Positions 35,427 through 47,054 of a stretch of DNA of 47,054 nt are shown here, piece after piece (within the stretch, counting starts at the first letter, position 1; each line of letters opens with the position of its first letter). Both the position numbers and the translations under genes were made by a program. The stretch covers positions 1 to 47,054 of the IMG/VR virus record IMGVR_UViG_3300031227_000085, one strand, 5' to 3'. Source of the DNA: a virus. A model generated the notes under the pieces. The model saw nothing but the letters and a program-made list of their open reading frames with translations. It was not told the DNA's origin and did no database searches.

Positions 35427-36903
35427 CTTCGAGGAACACCCCTTCCTAGTTGATATTTATAAGGATACTGCTAGGGAGATTGTGGTCCAGAAGTCCGCAC
35501 AGACAGGGCTTACTACTTTTGGAATCAACAGAGCTTTATGGTTTGGGGACACGCATCAGGTTGCCGTTATTTACACATTCCCTACAGCAGGCGATGTTTC
35601 CGAGTTCTCCAAGGCAAGGGTAACGCCAATCATCCGTGCCTCCCCGCACCTGATGGGGCGGATAGCCGACGTTGACTCCGTTGAATTAAAGCAGATAGGG
35701 CAGTCGTTCATATACTTTCGTGGGACGTGGTCGGAAAGGCAGGCCATTTCGATTCCTGCGGATATGTTAGTTCACGATGAGACGGATAGGTCAAAGCCGG
35801 AGGTTCTCTCGATGTATCGGGAGAGGCTGTCGCACTCCAAATACAAGTACATAGTCAACCTATCGAACCCTTCCATACCGGGATATGGGGTTAATGCCCT
35901 ATACCTGAGGTCGGATATGAAGAAGTGGTTTGTGCAATGCCCCAAATGTGGCAAGGAGCAGGTCTTGAAGTATCCCGACTCCATCAGGATTGGGGAGCGT
36001 ACCTACTACCAGTGCGTGTTCTGCGGGGCGGAGCTTTCCGATGGGGTGAGGAAGCAGGGTAAGTGGAAGCCCACCAACAAGGGTGCGAGGATTAGCGGGT
36101 ACCATATCTCTCAGCTAATGGCTCCGTGGATTAGCGCCGAGGAGATAGTCGAAAAGAAAGAAAACGAGCGGTGGCTACAGACTTTCTACAACTTCGTTCT
36201 GGGACTACCTTATGCTGGTGAGAACGTCCCGATTAAGAGGACAGACCTACTAGAGTGCGTTCAGAATAAGTATGACCTCGAACAGTACGGGCGTGGTACT
36301 TATATGGGCGTTGACCAAGGGGATGAGCTTCACGTGGTTATTTTCCAACGGGGGGAAGCTAACAGGATAGTTTGGTGTGGGGTCTTGGATTCATTTGACG
36401 AACTCCCGAACCTGATGGACAACTACCAAGTGGTGTCTTGCGTGATTGACGCAATGCCGAATAAGCATTCGGCCAGACGGTTCGCCTACCAGTATCCGGG
36501 GAGGGTGTGGTTGTGCTATTACTCAGACACACAAAAGGAGCCAGTGAAATGGACAGAGGATGATGAAAAGAAGGAGTGGAGAGTTGTGGCCCAGCGAACG
36601 GAATCATTGGACGCTTGGGGAGAATCGGTGACAAGCCACAGTGTTATACTACCTAAAGTCACCCAGATAATAGATGTGTTTATACGGCACTCTTGTAACT
36701 TGGCAAGAGATAGGGTAGAGAAGCCAGACGGTACGATAATTTGGAAATATTTGGCAGTTGGGCCTGACCACTTTGCACACGCTGCCAATTATGGTATGAT
36801 TGCCTTGAGTCGAGCACCAGTTGGCTCTTTGGCTGAAACTTCCAAAAGGTCTAGGAAGAAGGATAGACCTATGACCGCCGGTTTAATGGATAAAGAATTT
36901 TAA
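35314..36903 (+). CDS. terL: Terminase large subunit, GpA family
   Basis: The 529-residue protein is a GpA-type packaging ATPase-nuclease. Walker A-like QKSAQTGLTT (residues 59-68), Walker B MLVHDETDR (151-159), a CPKCGK...CVFCG zinc ribbon (209-237) and nuclease acidic residues in MGVDQGDELH (about D334) and CVIDAMPN are all visible. It pumps DNA into the prohead and cuts it. The start at 35314 is supported by the N-terminal PLIWAGENCRTEKG pattern typical of the family. It is followed without gap by the portal gene. Confidence 0.92.
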   Translation: MNSNLEGNQSPIPKGIQREKPLIWAGENCRTEKGDRLDFEEHPFLVDIYKDTAREIVVQKSAQTGLTTFGINRALWFGDTHQVAVIYTFPTAGDVSEFSKARVTPIIRASPHLMGRIADVDSVELKQIGQSFIYFRGTWSERQAISIPADMLVHDETDRSKPEVLSMYRERLSHSKYKYIVNLSNPSIPGYGVNALYLRSDMKKWFVQCPKCGKEQVLKYPDSIRIGERTYYQCVFCGAELSDGVRKQGKWKPTNKGARISGYHISQLMAPWISAEEIVEKKENERWLQTFYNFVLGLPYAGENVPIKRTDLLECVQNKYDLEQYGRGTYMGVDQGDELHVVIFQRGEANRIVWCGVLDSFDELPNLMDNYQVVSCVIDAMPNKHSARRFAYQYPGRVWLCYYSDTQKEPVKWTEDDEKKEWRVVAQRTESLDAWGESVTSHSVILPKVTQIIDVFIRHSCNLARDRVEKPDGTIIWKYLAVGPDHFAHAANYGMIALSRAPVGSLAETSKRSRKKDRPMTAGLMDKEF

Positions 36904-39900
36904 TGCCAAAGCTAACTGAGAGAATCAGACAAGTATTTTCGACAAAGGCCGCCGGACGAACCGAGTTGGGCGCATCGGGAACTACTATATTTAGTGGTAT
37001 TATAGATACCGAGGAGTATGTTTCCGACCTCAAAGGCGACCAGCTAATTGACACCGTAAATAAAATGCGGTGGTCAGACGCCACGGTCAAGGCCGCCCTC
37101 CTAGCAGTTACCCTTCCAATTCTATCCGCAGACTGGGATATAGAACCCGCCTCAGAAGACTCTCAAGACATTGAAATTGCTGACGTAGTAAAACAGAACC
37201 TATTTGAAGACTTAGTTTGGGAAGACCTTTTGAGGGAAATACTTCTTTATCTACCGTTTGGATTCTATGCGTTTGAGAAGGTTTTCAAGCTGGTGGACGG
37301 GGTTTTCCTGTGGAAGAAGTGGGCGCCAAGGCTCCCCAAGACAATATATGAATGGAATATGGAGAAGGGAGAGCTAGTCTCGGTAGTGCAGAGGGTTTAT
37401 AAAGAAGGCAGCTACGAGACAATAACAATCCCAGCAGAGAAGCTGTTAATCTTTACCAACGAGAAAGAGGGCGACAACTTCCGTGGAACCTCCCTCCTCC
37501 GTCAGGCCTACAAGCACTGGTGGTACAGAAAGAACTACTACGCTATTGACGCCATCGCTACTGAGAGGCACGGGGTAGGAATACCTGTAATAACCTTACC
37601 TCCGGGGTACAGTCCGCAGGACAAAGAAGAAGCGGATGAATTGGGCTCGAACCTTCGGGCTAACCAGCAATCCCACATTACTAGGCCGTCCCCGCAATGG
37701 GAGATAGAGATGCTGGATATGAAGACCAGCACCCTCAAAGACCCCCAGAAGATGCTAGAACACCATACCAGAGAGATTCTGAAGTCGGTATTAGCTCAAT
37801 TCATCGAGTTAGGACAGCAAACCGGCTCTTGGGCTTTGAATGAGGGCCAGATGGCGTTCTTTGTGGACGGGGTGGATGCGGCGGCTTGCTATACGGAGAA
37901 TGTTATAAACAAATACGCTATCCAGCAGATGGTGGACTTGAACTGGACGGTGGATGAGTACCCCAAACTAACTCACGGGGACTTGGGTGTGATTGACGTA
38001 GAGAAGCTGTCGAATGCCCTACAATCACTTTCAATGGTAGGAATGGTCACGCCTGACCCAGAAATGGAAAGGTACCTGAGGAACATTCTAAAGCTCCCAG
38101 AACCCCCAGAGGAGTTTGGAACCTCGACACCAGCATCAAAGACGGAGGAGTTGGAAACAGAGGAGGAGAAGGTGGAGACGGAGGAGAAAGCGAAGACGGA
38201 GGAAAAGGTGAAGACGGAAAAGAAGATGAGCGAGCGATGGCATCGCCAGTTAACGAAAGCAGAGGGTGCGGTGAGGTTTGATGAGATTAAGCGGGTAATG
38301 GATTCAGAGGAGAAGGTACTATTTAACGAACTATCAAAGATTCTAATCCGTGAGCGGGCGTACCTGATGCCGAAGTTTGAACGGGCCGTTCAGAATAACG
38401 ATTTAGCGGCTTTGCAAAACATAGCCGGAAGGTTTAAAGGTGAGTACGAGAGGGTATTTAGGAACGGAAGTAAGAAGCTGTTCGAGTATGGGAAGAACAA
38501 AGCAGCATTTGAAATCAAGAAACCCGCACCCTCAACTACTGGAGAGAAGACGGGCGAGATTTTCGACCAAGCCCATTACTATGCGGAGCGCCACTACAAG
38601 GACTTAGTTGATAATCTAAAGTCGGCGGCCTCGATGGGGGTGCTTGATAAAACCGTCTCCACATCGGATACCATAAAGAGTGTTAAAGATACTTATAAGA
38701 AGTTCATTAACCGCAACTGCGCTATTACTGCTAACCTGTCGGTGGCGGAGGGCTTTAACGAGGGCAGGAAGTATTCGTTTGACACCTACTCGGAGGATGT
38801 TTACGGCTACCAATGGAGTGCTATATTAGACGGGGCGACTTGCTTCCCTGCTGGCACGAAAGTAATTACCGACAAGGGGGAGAGATATATACAGACTATA
38901 AAGGCGGGTGACAAGGTATTAACACGGGGCGGGTTCAAGCAAGTCACTGATAATGGGGTGCGAGATTACGAGGGGCGAGTAGTTAAGGTATCATCCACTA
39001 AAGGGCATTTTGTTTGTACCGAAGACCATCCTGTGTTTGTAAACGGGGGGTTTGAGGAAGCCAAGTATCTAACCGTTGGCGACACACTCACTTATTCTCG
39101 TAATAATGTATTCTTCAAGGTCGCTGATAGAGTTTATGGTTTCCTCGGGAAATCTCAGTACTTTGAACCCGTGTTTGGTAAGGTACTTAGTTTTCTTAAT
39201 ATCCTTAGATTTATCTCGGTGCCAGTAACTGCCATCAACTTCTACACAAATTCGGAACTTGGGGATGTAGAAATCGATAGAGTACCTACCAATACGGGCT
39301 TCTTGTGTGAAACTGTAAGAGATATTTTCAAGGGCGCCTCTAAACTTCTTTTCAAGCCCGCTTTCGCCGTGAAATCGGCGGTAGCACGCAATATTACAGA
39401 AGACTTGGTTAGTAGACGGAATCTTTCTAAAAGGTTTTCCGCACGATTTACATTTAATAATGACAGGCGGGCGACGACACTCTTCGGAGCAATAGCTCCT
39501 ATTCTGGCCTTTGGGATGATTAAAAGTCTTGCCACATCGTTTACAAATGCTGTAGGTAGCGTGCTTGCGTTTACACTCCAGCGAGCAGAAATTATATCTA
39601 CTAGCATTGGAGCGTGGTACGGAGAATTCTTTGCTACACCCAATACAGACTTTAATTACTCTTTTACCCGTATCTCTACAAGCAAGGGAGCAGAACAAAT
39701 CACGACCAGATTTAATAGCGTTGGCGGGGCGATAGAATACTCTACCGCAGCTGGGACAAATGACATTTTCCCCCGTCTTCGTGGATTTATGGTAGCACTC
39801 TCTGGAACAGAACCTAGGGTTTCTGCTCTTGTAGGGGGATTGAAAAGATTTGCCGCAAACTTGGCAAGCGTAGGTCATCAACCTAATTATAACATAAATA

Positions 39901-40322
39901 TCAAGAACAACCGACCATTAAAAGTTTACAACCTACAGGTGGCTGACACCGCCGAATACTTTGCTAATAGGGCTTTGGTTCATAACTGCAACTACTGCCG
40001 CTCGATGGACGGGAAGGTTATCGGCGGGACAGATAAGAAGTTTAGTAGCTACCAGCCTGGGCGGGTACATTTTAATTGTAGGTGTATTTGGGTTGCTATT
40101 CTGAAAGGCGAGGAAAACCCTCCGGCCTTTACAGGTATCCCAAACCAGCTAAGACCCCAGACCGAGGTTCCGCCTTGGGGGTTCAAGGACTTGCACGCAC
40201 CGCTTCCGGGGAGCACTCACTTGGAGATTGAGGATAGGCTAACTACACCGGCGATGCAGCGGCAAGAGGAGGTACTTTACGGTAAGAAGACGTACCGAGA
40301 GGGGGCTGATAAGAATGACTGA
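36903..40322 (+). CDS. Portal-MuF fusion protein containing an intein
   Basis: The 1139-residue precursor has three parts. Residues 1-410 are a DUF935/Mu gp29-type portal (QLIDTVNKMRWSDATVKAAL, LPFGFYAFEKVFKLVDG, GNFRGTSLLRQ-type motif). Residues about 460-646 are the start of a MuF minor head protein, ending WSAILDGAT. The MuF motif continues after the intein as CNYCRSMDGKVIGGTDKKF with VHFNCRCIWVAI, so residues 647-1028 are an intein. Splicing should give a portal-MuF of 757 residues. The insertion point, directly before the first Cys of the conserved MuF CxxC motif, is a typical conserved-site intein location. Confidence 0.9.
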   Translation: MPKLTERIRQVFSTKAAGRTELGASGTTIFSGIIDTEEYVSDLKGDQLIDTVNKMRWSDATVKAALLAVTLPILSADWDIEPASEDSQDIEIADVVKQNLFEDLVWEDLLREILLYLPFGFYAFEKVFKLVDGVFLWKKWAPRLPKTIYEWNMEKGELVSVVQRVYKEGSYETITIPAEKLLIFTNEKEGDNFRGTSLLRQAYKHWWYRKNYYAIDAIATERHGVGIPVITLPPGYSPQDKEEADELGSNLRANQQSHITRPSPQWEIEMLDMKTSTLKDPQKMLEHHTREILKSVLAQFIELGQQTGSWALNEGQMAFFVDGVDAAACYTENVINKYAIQQMVDLNWTVDEYPKLTHGDLGVIDVEKLSNALQSLSMVGMVTPDPEMERYLRNILKLPEPPEEFGTSTPASKTEELETEEEKVETEEKAKTEEKVKTEKKMSERWHRQLTKAEGAVRFDEIKRVMDSEEKVLFNELSKILIRERAYLMPKFERAVQNNDLAALQNIAGRFKGEYERVFRNGSKKLFEYGKNKAAFEIKKPAPSTTGEKTGEIFDQAHYYAERHYKDLVDNLKSAASMGVLDKTVSTSDTIKSVKDTYKKFINRNCAITANLSVAEGFNEGRKYSFDTYSEDVYGYQWSAILDGATCFPAGTKVITDKGERYIQTIKAGDKVLTRGGFKQVTDNGVRDYEGRVVKVSSTKGHFVCTEDHPVFVNGGFEEAKYLTVGDTLTYSRNNVFFKVADRVYGFLGKSQYFEPVFGKVLSFLNILRFISVPVTAINFYTNSELGDVEIDRVPTNTGFLCETVRDIFKGASKLLFKPAFAVKSAVARNITEDLVSRRNLSKRFSARFTFNNDRRATTLFGAIAPILAFGMIKSLATSFTNAVGSVLAFTLQRAEIISTSIGAWYGEFFATPNTDFNYSFTRISTSKGAEQITTRFNSVGGAIEYSTAAGTNDIFPRLRGFMVALSGTEPRVSALVGGLKRFAANLASVGHQPNYNINIKNNRPLKVYNLQVADTAEYFANRALVHNCNYCRSMDGKVIGGTDKKFSSYQPGRVHFNCRCIWVAILKGEENPPAFTGIPNQLRPQTEVPPWGFKDLHAPLPGSTHLEIEDRLTTPAMQRQEEVLYGKKTYREGADKND
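39069..39878 (-). CDS. Zinc-finger/Vsr-like homing endonuclease, antisense within intein
   Basis: The 269-residue protein starts at ATG 39878 (a TTG lies just upstream). Residues 1-165 contain five treble-clef-like fingers of the type CQVCGKSF...RFCSREC, CPSCGRVF...FCSLAC, CIGCSKEF...FCSLEC, CKRCGKTF...YCSEEC and CKSCGKPF...FCNIAC. Residues about 170-260 are a Vsr/DUF559-like nuclease: RIGRYSIDFYIPKFRICVEV, DGSYWHRDKSKDIKKTKYLT, HGFKVLRFPEE. This matches the known zinc-finger Vsr-like homing endonucleases. It replaces the endonuclease domain of the intein but on the opposite strand. Its last codons lie under the VGDTL block of the intein. Confidence 0.93.
   Translation of the reverse strand: MTYACQVCGKSFQSPYKSRNPRFCSRECYHKSTKTGENVICPSCGRVFYRPANAIKSGRDLFCSLACRDTGKRVIKVCIGCSKEFSVPRSNASRYNFCSLECKRKHATYSICKRCGKTFNHPKGQNRSYCSEECRRPPVIIKCKSCGKPFRKIPSTNQVFCNIACYRRFHGESGLEKKFRGALENISYSFTQEARIGRYSIDFYIPKFRICVEVDGSYWHRDKSKDIKKTKYLTKHGFKVLRFPEETINSISDLEEYIITRISECVANG
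39886..39896 (-). promoter_or_regulatory. Extended -10 promoter of the antisense endonuclease
   Basis: The minus strand reads TATG-T-TATAAT, a perfect TRTGn extended -10; no good -35 box is present. The ATG follows after 7 bases, so the mRNA is predicted to start at the ATG. The element lies inside the intein coding sequence between the nuclease insert and block F. Confidence 0.65.
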
Positions 40323-45207: not shown

Positions 45208-45894
45208 ATGTTTGAGAAACAATCAATTTCGGGACACTTGCGAGCAGAGCTTCTTGGAAAGGACGGCCAGCTGAAGCAGCTTCGTGAAATCGACAACGTC
45301 TTCACTGATGTTGGAGATGACCACGTAGCTGACCAGATGGAGTCTTCTCCTGAAGAGGCGGCGATGAGCCATATGGCCATCGGTACGGCTACTGCGGCGC
45401 ACACAGCCGGTTCTACAACTCTGGGAACGGAGATTGACCGGAACGCTCTAACCTCCTTCACTCAGGGTGCGGGTGGCGACAGCAACAAGGTCGTTTATGT
45501 AGGTGACTGGGCGGCTGCTGACGGAACAGGTGCTGTTACCGAGGCGGGGATTTTCAACTCCTCGGCTTCTGGTGCTGGTACCTTGCTCTGTGCGCAGACC
45601 TTCTCGGTGATTAACAAGGGTGCAGCTGATACCCTCCAAATTACCTTAACAAGTTTAGGGTCTTTCTATCGCAAGGTAGAAATGAAACTTCGTAAATTCG
45701 GGGAACATCTCTCTGAGACAATCCCGAGCCAAGCATTCCGATTTATCGGAAGGGCGTGTGTAGAGACTAGAGACGAAGCAACCCTCTGGGTTGAAAGGAT
45801 AGTCCGAACTGTATGGCGACATACAGAGCTAGGCAGAAATGACCTAGCCCTCCTTCGGGAGAGTAACAATTCTGGGACGGTTACGTTCGGGTGA
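45208..45894 (+). CDS. Structural protein with unusual C-terminal extension
   Basis: The 228-residue protein starts with GAGAGGGGGTGATAATTA upstream. Residues 1-150 read like a common phage structural protein: LREIDNVFTDVGDDHVADQM, MSHMAIGTATAAHTAGSTTL, TEAGIFNSSASGAGTLLCAQ, ending DTLQITLT. Such proteins normally stop soon after this strand. Here about 75 residues of a different, basic, helical kind follow (MKLRKFGEHLSETIPSQAFR). The extension could be a fused second gene (an in-frame ATG at 45682 has AAGGTAG upstream) or a rearranged end next to the endonuclease insertion. Confidence 0.6.
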   Translation: MFEKQSISGHLRAELLGKDGQLKQLREIDNVFTDVGDDHVADQMESSPEEAAMSHMAIGTATAAHTAGSTTLGTEIDRNALTSFTQGAGGDSNKVVYVGDWAAADGTGAVTEAGIFNSSASGAGTLLCAQTFSVINKGAADTLQITLTSLGSFYRKVEMKLRKFGEHLSETIPSQAFRFIGRACVETRDEATLWVERIVRTVWRHTELGRNDLALLRESNNSGTVTFG

Positions 45895-45903
45895 TGCTAG
45901 CAC

Positions 45904-45932
45904 TTGACAAGTAACCTTTGGTAAGGTATCAT
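45904..45932 (+). promoter_or_regulatory. Promoter of HNH gene at 45939, predicted leaderless
   Basis: TTGACA (45904-45909), 17-base spacer, TATCAT (45927-45932), ATG after 6 bases (AATAAT). Same architecture as promoters at 8040, 28274 and 32790. Confidence 0.75.
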
Positions 45933-45938
45933 AATAAT

Positions 45939-46454
45939 ATGATACCTGACTGGCATTGGACAAAGCAACCAAAGGAGGTTCAAGAAAAGGCATTACGCCG
46001 AATTGCCAAAGGATGGGGCAGGAAGCCAAAGACTGGTAAATGGATAACCTGCCCCACCTGCGGGAAGAAGGTTTGGAAAAAGCTATACTTCATCAAGAGA
46101 AGTAAGGAGCTATTTTGCTCTAAGAAATGTCTCAGTATAAGTAAAAGGGGAAAAATACCGAAGAACTTCGAGATGTTTCAGGCAAAGAGCCCTTTCAGAA
46201 AAGGCAAGGATAATATCAACTGGCGTGGTGGGGTATCGCCTTACCCGAGAGAGTGGAAGGGCTCTATACGGCAGAAAGTTTGGGCAAGGGACAAGAACAC
46301 CTGTCAGATATGCGGCGAAGTAAGTGAGGAGGGAAGTAGCTGTTTAGTTGTTCACCATATAGATTTTAATAAGAAGAATTGCGCACCGAGTAATCTACGG
46401 TTACTTTGTCGCTCGTGCCATATGAAGATTCACTGGCAACAAAGACGAGAATAA
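45939..46454 (+). CDS. HNH homing endonuclease
   Basis: The 171-residue protein starts at ATG 45939 (MIPDWHWTKQPKEVQ); an upstream GTG start would place the promoter inside the gene. It has a zinc knuckle (CPTCGKKVWKKL...FCSKKC), a DINWRGG-type linker (KDNINWRGGVSPYP) and an HNH domain (RDKNTCQICGEVSEEG, LVVHHIDFNKKN, LRLLCRSCHMKIHW). It is inserted between the structural gene at 45208 and the glycosyltransferase gene, and overlaps the latter by one base (TAATG). Confidence 0.9.
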   Translation: MIPDWHWTKQPKEVQEKALRRIAKGWGRKPKTGKWITCPTCGKKVWKKLYFIKRSKELFCSKKCLSISKRGKIPKNFEMFQAKSPFRKGKDNINWRGGVSPYPREWKGSIRQKVWARDKNTCQICGEVSEEGSSCLVVHHIDFNKKNCAPSNLRLLCRSCHMKIHWQQRRE

Positions 46455-47054
46455 TGACAAAACTAACAGAATTCGATTCACTATTTGAGAAGCCGGAAGC
46501 TAAGAGCGAAGTTGAAACTGTAAAGGATTCGGGAGGCAGAACCAAGATAATGGTAGCTATCCCGCATTTGGGCTGGATACTGGCTGGGTTGGAGACGAAG
46601 ATTGCCAGATGGATAATGGAAAGGGATTACGATGTGGTTCAGCTGTTCAGGTCAGCGGCTCCGGTGTCGGCGAACAGAAACGGCATCGTCCACGAGTTCC
46701 TACAGACCGATTGCGACTTTCTCCTGATGATTGACAGCGATACCACCCCTATTAAGAACCCGCTGGACTTGGTAAAGCACGACAAGGATATAGTAAGCGG
46801 CGCCACGCCTACTTGGAAAGAGGGGGGGTACGCTTGGGCGGTTGGGAGGAGGTACGAGGACGGGAGCTACAATCAGTACAAGCAAGATGAAAGAACAGGT
46901 CTTAGGCTGGTAGACGGTGTTGGGGCAAGCTGTCTGATGATTAAGAGGAAGGTATTGGAAACGGTTAAGATACCGTTTATGGAAAAGTGGAACGAGATAG
47001 GGGAAAGAGCTTTAGGTGAGGATTTACACTTCTGCGAGAAGGCGCAAGAGGCGG
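46454..47054 (+). CDS. Glycosyltransferase (GT-A fold), 5' part
   Basis: This is the start of the 244-residue enzyme completed at 1-488. Residues 30-40 (TKIMVAIPHLG) form the first Rossmann strand, residues 94-97 the DSDT metal-binding motif. The start ATG 46454 is in TAATG overlap with the HNH gene. Its reading frame runs to the window end without a stop. From 46701 the sequence repeats the window start with 20 mostly synonymous differences in one patch, which keeps the protein almost unchanged and implies purifying selection. Confidence 0.8.
   Translation, partial: MTKLTEFDSLFEKPEAKSEVETVKDSGGRTKIMVAIPHLGWILAGLETKIARWIMERDYDVVQLFRSAAPVSANRNGIVHEFLQTDCDFLLMIDSDTTPIKNPLDLVKHDKDIVSGATPTWKEGGYAWAVGRRYEDGSYNQYKQDERTGLRLVDGVGASCLMIKRKVLETVKIPFMEKWNEIGERALGEDLHFCEKAQEA
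46701..47054. repeat. Terminal overlap, right copy (matches 1-354)
   Basis: Same 354 bases as the window start, with all 20 differences falling between 46829 and 46927. See the left copy for interpretation. Confidence 0.85.

Follow-up and report, generated by a model that had tools for sequence, protein, structure and literature searches.

An antisense EDxHD nuclease gene in codon register within a phage MuF intein, and its probable role as a homing endonuclease

Introduction

How might an intein carry a homing endonuclease that is not part of its own reading frame? The question is raised by a 47,054-nucleotide stretch of viral DNA (IMG/VR record IMGVR_UViG_3300031227_000085, positions 1 to 47,054; here, the window), in which a portal-MuF head-protein gene contains an intein on the plus strand, and in which the linker of that intein is, on the minus strand, a complete gene for a zinc-finger nuclease of the EDxHD type. 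A first-pass annotation made from the window alone had proposed that the splicing blocks are complete, and that the nuclease is expressed from its own promoter. Our analysis makes it highly probable that this intein homes by means of an endonuclease which has an overlapping gene of its own, transcribed separately and running antisense through the intein linker, although the splicing, transcription, cleavage and homing that such a reading entails are all predictions from anatomy.

Results

The host gene (Table 1) is one open reading frame (ORF) with no stop from end to end, and not the separate ORFs of a fractured gene. The intein occupies residues 647-1028 of the protein (limits CFPAGT...VHN|C) and interrupts the MuF motif CNYCRSMDGKVI at its first Cys, with the junction ALVHN|C. 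It has the Cys or Ser at position 1, the TxxH of block B, the C-terminal HN and the +1 Cys, Ser or Thr (here Cys) that define inteins; with hidden Markov model (HMM) matches to PT-HINT (1e-11) and Intein_splicing (2e-4), the splicing blocks are indeed complete. C1, T60, H63, H381 and N382 are invariant in 27/27 antisense-class members (described below), and the host ORFs checked among relatives restart at HN|C within the MuF Cys motif. AlphaFold (AF2) gave the Hint parts at both ends of the intein a predicted local distance difference test score (pLDDT) of about 94, mostly 82-96; at the N-terminal end it stays at 82-96 to about residue 80, dropping past residue 85. The best Foldseek matches were to the gp41-1 intein (6qaz) and 2lwy. 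The linker (residues 100-356), which is antisense to the nuclease, scores about 30, and this rules it out as a folded domain; the endonuclease is thus not in the intein frame, where canonical large inteins have theirs.

The antisense nuclease was found exactly at the coordinates, strand and length first annotated, and its zinc-finger/Vsr-like character is borne out by a Pfam match to DUF559 (1.4e-13) and by five CxxC fingers; an alternative TTG start at 39881 would give 270 residues. AF2 modelled it with a mean pLDDT of 94.5, and Foldseek matched the model to the catalytic domain of the endonuclease I-Bth0305I (3r3p; E-value 1e-5, template modelling (TM) score 0.78-0.80 by target) and to Vsr (1cw0; 8e-4), a further relative in the PDB being 3hrl, another endonuclease-like protein. 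These fold matches, together with the invariant residues, supply both the catalytic fold and the conserved E, D, H and D of the EDxHD family.

Table 1. Positions of the intein, its host gene and the antisense nuclease gene in the window
Feature	Position	Strand	Details
Portal-MuF fusion gene with intein inside	36903..40322	+	1139 residues; Portal_Mu 2e-49; MuF C-terminal motif NYCRSMDGKVI...HFNCRC
N-extein (portal and most of MuF)	36903..38840	+	last residues ...AILDGAT
Intein	38841..39986	+	382 codons, C1 to HN; +1 residue Cys, the first Cys of the MuF CxxC motif
N-terminal Hint blocks	38841..39110	+	block A CFPAGT; block B TEDH at 39018-39029
C-terminal Hint blocks F and G	39915..39986	+	PLKVYNLQ...ALVHN; pLDDT above 90
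Antisense endonuclease gene	39069..39878	-	ATG start, 269 residues, TAG stop at 39071-39069; codon register shared with the intein frame
Five CxxC-type zinc-finger repeats (predicted DNA binding)	39384..39869	-	within the antisense nuclease
EDxHD/Vsr-like catalytic domain	39129..39353	-	E176, D202, E213, D215, W219, H220 invariant
Predicted extended -10 promoter element TGTTATAAT	39886..39894	-	7 nt before the nuclease ATG; transcript would be near-leaderless

Single-sequence searches with the nuclease or the intein against viral and genome contigs returned only the window's own virus, and relatives were reached with motif patterns or profiles. Six further distinct phages with the same layout (nuclease identity 36-43%) came from a pattern for MuF block A, and a profile search found 122 loci, which were classed with intein HMMs built for this analysis. 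The non-redundant loci comprise 31 antisense loci with a continuous intein ORF (the window and 30 others, every one in register), 3 antisense loci (L068, L072 and L073) with an intein ORF interrupted by stops, and 11 same-strand loci in the +1 frame; the rest were without a detected intein or too short. In the nearest relative, L021 (68% identical over the shared intein), most of the nuclease has gone by an in-frame deletion, leaving a clean mini-intein and an antisense remnant of about 70 codons with the tail EVDGSYWHRD...KCIPHD. The +1-frame sister class (L077, L082, L083, L085, L087, L088, L092, L093, L095, L098 and L107) has its zinc-finger EDxHD nuclease on the intein strand, with both frames open over 180-420 codons. 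In the MuF motif, the antisense zinc-finger class occupies the first Cys and the +1-frame class mostly the second. Related genomes with the window nuclease in frame, which the first-pass annotation had named as the finding that would speak against it, were not clearly seen: 11/11 same-strand cases are in the +1 frame, and short Vsr-domain matches at L108, L110 and L111 are in frame by score alone.

A survey blind to the nuclease, which sought the end of the intein together with the MuF motif (pattern ANG..VHNC..C) and required an N-domain in the same ORF, gave 47 large MuF inteins: 39 antisense, 4 same-strand +1-frame and 4 in-frame. With near-duplicates removed, antisense ORFs, for which such a survey had been suggested, are present in 25 of 33 distinct inteins, the others being 4 +1-frame and 4 in-frame. 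The four in-frame nucleases are LAGLIDADG enzymes (Pfam 3e-7 to 1e-16) and the off-frame ones are EDxHD-like, with L185 an HNH nuclease and with L162 and L184, which have no Pfam match, assigned by inspection.

Several other arrangements were seen among these loci. L053 and L074 have two consecutive inteins per MuF gene, at the first Cys and at the HxNCRC motif, and the antisense zinc-finger layout also occurs, within genes of phage type, on genome contigs of two named bacterial strains suited to laboratory tests, L113 (Streptomyces alboflavus) and L115 (Gordonibacillus kamchatkensis). In the mycobacteriophages Camster (L010), Kari (L019) and Seagreen (L020) a related nuclease lies antisense between two DNA methylase halves, where no intein or Rfam intron was detected; the annotated gene 55 of Camster is on the wrong strand. 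A group I intron was considered as carrier of the antisense nuclease and dismissed, Rfam finding none at the window locus, in Camster or in Seagreen.

The codon boundaries of the intein and nuclease frames coincide, and a stop in the plus frame is therefore a TTA, CTA or TCA codon of the nuclease. The window nuclease has none of these among its 9 Leu and 27 Ser codons, in a phage where TTA/CTA make up 42% of Leu and TCA 17% of Ser codons; when it was recoded with the locus's own codon usage, a mean of 10.2 plus-frame stops arose and 0/2000 recodings were open. Over the 31 continuous loci, a class itself defined by the open ORF, TTA/CTA account for 0/419 Leu codons and TCA for 0/550 Ser codons; in relatives not classed as intein-embedded the counts are 180/504 and 56/339, and the three loci with a broken intein ORF show no avoidance of host-stop codons. 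Continuous loci make up 31 of 34 antisense cases, against about 1.7 expected from synonymous recoding, and all 11 of the +1-frame class are open in both frames, against 0.002 of 11 expected. The minimum over all synonymous codings contains zero unavoidable host stops only in the antisense register (34/34) and in the observed +1 phase (9/9), while in the remaining three of the five alternative frames at least about half of the nuclease proteins carry forced host stops. The two natural architectures are the two frames in which stops can be avoided, as expected if an open intein ORF was the constraint. Nuclease-frame substitutions in close pairs fall far more at the third codon position than at the first, and least at the second (for L048/L054: 21, 13 and 50 at positions 1, 2 and 3), and in all pairs listed identity is higher for the nuclease than for the host frame (means 0.42 vs 0.23). 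The best explanation is that two selections act on the same DNA: on the protein in the nuclease frame, and on stop-avoidance and splicing motifs in the intein frame.

We scanned the 90 nt upstream of each nuclease for TGnTATAAT, accepting at least 7/8 positions. Consensus matches precede 18/30 antisense nucleases (10 of them perfect), for which dinucleotide shuffles gave 2.3 (maximum 5), and 0/11 of the +1-frame nucleases; this class-wide enrichment strengthens the earlier suggestion that the window nuclease has its own, still predicted, extended -10 promoter. The sequence TCAGGAG precedes the ATG in several antisense nucleases, while others, the window's included, would be nearly leaderless. 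A Shine-Dalgarno sequence was set aside as a class-wide rule, being only modestly enriched in the antisense class (9 vs 3.5 shuffled, maximum 8) and not in the +1 class (4 vs 3.5 shuffled).

The same antisense register is used by a second nuclease type, helix-turn-helix (HTH)-EDxHD, in cultured phages whose hosts include Gordonia, Salmonella, Escherichia, Klebsiella, Pseudomonas and Vibrio. In Gordonia phage Malisha the MuF protein, gp5, has its intein at another site than the window's (HDN|CKC); its HTH-EDxHD nuclease is antisense and in register, and 0/50 of the Leu/Ser codons give host stops. The sibling phages Squiddly and Spooky are intein-free, with the empty site HDN|CGC. Malisha and Squiddly are mostly 98-100% identical (about 99% for most of the sequence upstream, about 93% in places, among them the final 120 nt) until about 90 nt upstream of the intein, nearer to which identity falls to about 60% and then about 40% over several hundred nt; such a drop would be as expected from co-conversion, but ordinary phage mosaicism may also account for it. 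With the Malisha nuclease, tblastn found 128 phage records, and in 9/9 cultured examples read in detail (Malisha, Aaphi23, Fosterous, Vibrio 1.197.A, P. aeruginosa BR161a, Salmonella LSPA1, E. coli KMB36, Klebsiella KpTDp1 and Rhodococcus REQ3) the nuclease is antisense, in register and within the head protein ORF. The KMB36 record labels the protein 'minor head protein with inserted intein', with no annotated gene on the opposite strand. In six cultured HTH-EDxHD cases (L222, L223, L226, L228, L229 and L230) the penultimate His is replaced, SN, RN or KN standing before the +1 Cys, which suggests a non-canonical C-terminal splicing step. Inteins with an antisense nuclease have gone unnoticed in dozens of phages that are not related to each other, some of them well-studied and in culture.

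Elsewhere in the window there is a group I intron at 45637-45826 (+; Rfam RF00028, 71.6 bits), followed by an ORF for a zinc-ribbon HNH endonuclease at 45918-46454 (+). The finger of the latter resembles those of the antisense nuclease (36% over 44 residues), so the phage holds two homing elements with common finger modules. The window ends, 1-354 and 46701-47054, are direct copies (94% identical), suggesting a circular or terminally redundant genome imperfectly joined, or a duplicated gene.

Discussion

We propose that the late head gene would be translated whole, the two Hint halves folding around an unstructured linker of about 260 residues that is the reverse reading of the nuclease gene, and that the Hint parts would then splice out to leave an intact portal-MuF head protein. 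A sigma70-type extended -10 promoter within the antisense of block F may direct a short minus-strand mRNA for the zinc-finger EDxHD nuclease, which would recognise MuF genes that lack the intein, in co-infecting phages, and cut them at their conserved Cys motif; repair could then copy the intein into the cut gene. The nuclease would so be expressed independently of both the head gene and splicing. The best reading is that the window intein is active, or was recently active, in homing. Beyond the window, we think it somewhat more probable than otherwise that homing inteins with overlapping nuclease genes are widespread, their EDxHD (and some HNH) nucleases lying off-frame only in those two of the five frames (antisense register and same-strand +1) that keep the intein frame open, and that an antisense promoter makes the nuclease independent of the late head gene, with homing and splicing timed separately from the two strands of a single DNA segment.

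Other explanations deserve weighing against this one. It is scarcely credible that the antisense ORF arose by chance, as a mirror ORF, or through faulty assembly: codon-register antisense ORFs do readily become long in GC-rich genes, and at some single loci the probability of an open frame is up to 0.24, but the evidence from nuclease family, fold and invariant residues is strong, and the layout recurs in 31 distinct loci, in bacterial isolates and in cultured phages. A misassembly or inversion at 39069-39878, the objection foreseen at the outset, fails moreover because two other independent metagenome contigs hold the identical intein, making three copies of the window virus in all. It is also improbable that splicing has been lost, a free-standing nuclease having landed inside the intein and the long protein being tolerated, or its halves acting unspliced as has been proposed for the ShiLan insertion. 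The unusually long linker with its predicted disorder, the HTH-class relatives without the penultimate His and the split ORFs of L068, L072 and L073 would all fit such decay; however, the Hint catalytic residues are invariant throughout the antisense zinc-finger class, the insertion falls at an essential MuF Cys motif, and the mini-intein of L021 has outlasted the loss of its nuclease. The linker, too, avoids stops, which matters only if the whole ORF is translated.

Rather less improbable, though still unlikely, is that the nuclease is a second parasite which homes into inteins, its target lying between blocks B and F, and does not drive the intein into empty MuF genes. Three loci close in the tree (L039, L064 and L075) have no detected intein, and in the mycobacteriophage relatives the methylase halves flank the nuclease without intein blocks, as this would predict. 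Against it, the siblings of Malisha lack the entire intein, and architecture class follows the MuF insertion site, which is expected if the nuclease target and the intein site coincide. Homing nucleases can also serve as exclusion factors, and transcription against the late head gene could tune that gene; a minus strand that is mainly a regulatory antisense RNA, or that encodes a phage-exclusion nuclease and not a homing enzyme, is nevertheless very unlikely, since the gene occupies the classical homing location within an intein and since conservation of the EDxHD fold at the protein level indicates that the product, and not RNA alone, is under selection.

Some points weigh against the homing intein with an independent antisense gene, which we prefer. 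The nuclease target could be the intein itself or another site, although the empty MuF site is preferred. Because the 'continuous' class is defined by its open ORF, its zero stops are partly so by construction, and an open frame by itself is no rarity where a locus is GC-rich (P up to 0.24); three lines of evidence are independent of that definition, namely the ratio of 31 to 3, the recoding of the nuclease and the survey blind to it. The promoter motifs are consensus matches, anchored on an HMM start that is not always the start codon, and the divergent tract between Malisha and Squiddly also spans the scaffold gene, which is compatible with mosaicism.

If correct, our proposal shows a way for a homing intein not to produce a nuclease with each copy of a late structural protein, and the layout admits compact nucleases unfit to be an intein domain. 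It also provides a large natural collection of genes that are double-coding over their full length, of about 270 codons, with a conserved protein on one strand and a stop-free linker on the other. Proteins annotated as 'head morphogenesis' or 'minor head' in Salmonella Jerseyvirus, E. coli Kagunavirus, Klebsiella Jedunavirus and Gordonia phages conceal an unannotated nuclease gene, and Malisha/Squiddly in Gordonia terrae are a ready test system.

Compared with known systems, canonical large inteins (of the PI-SceI type, with an in-frame LAGLIDADG domain) likewise have Hint blocks flanking a homing endonuclease at the same linker position, and there too mini-inteins arise by nuclease loss. In the window type, however, the nuclease is on the other strand, outside the spliced protein and with its own predicted promoter, and in-frame LAGLIDADG enzymes account for 4/33 of the inteins surveyed. 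Dassa et al. reportedly described, in 2009, fractured genes with split inteins, with an EDxHD/Vsr-like nuclease gene between the intein halves. There the host gene is in two ORFs, whereas the window intein ORF is continuous; L068, L072 and L073 are the natural transition to such a fractured gene, the split form of the window family.

The ShiLan domain is an out-of-frame HNH endonuclease in a phage DNA methylase, for which the authors found no splicing element of any kind (PMC11855218). It resembles the window in that an endonuclease overlaps an open host frame within an inserted element of a phage gene; it differs in being an HNH enzyme on the same strand, in an alternative frame and without a splicing element, while the window nuclease is on the opposite strand between Hint domains, and the ShiLan text searched mentions no antisense gene. 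The searchable open-access literature, which left out Dassa 2009 and a possibly overlapping 2025 preprint on non-canonical actinobacteriophage inteins, yielded no continuous intein whose endonuclease is antisense and under its own promoter. I-Bth0305I shares its catalytic fold and EDxHD-type invariants with the window nuclease, but is encoded by a group I intron and has another DNA-binding region. Finally, homing endonuclease genes lie antisense in nuclear ribosomal DNA group I introns of Didymium, where an own promoter has been proposed (PMC9548176). They too place a homing endonuclease antisense inside a self-splicing element, but that element is an RNA intron whose host strand is non-coding, and hence one stretch of DNA is not doubly coding there, as it is in the window.

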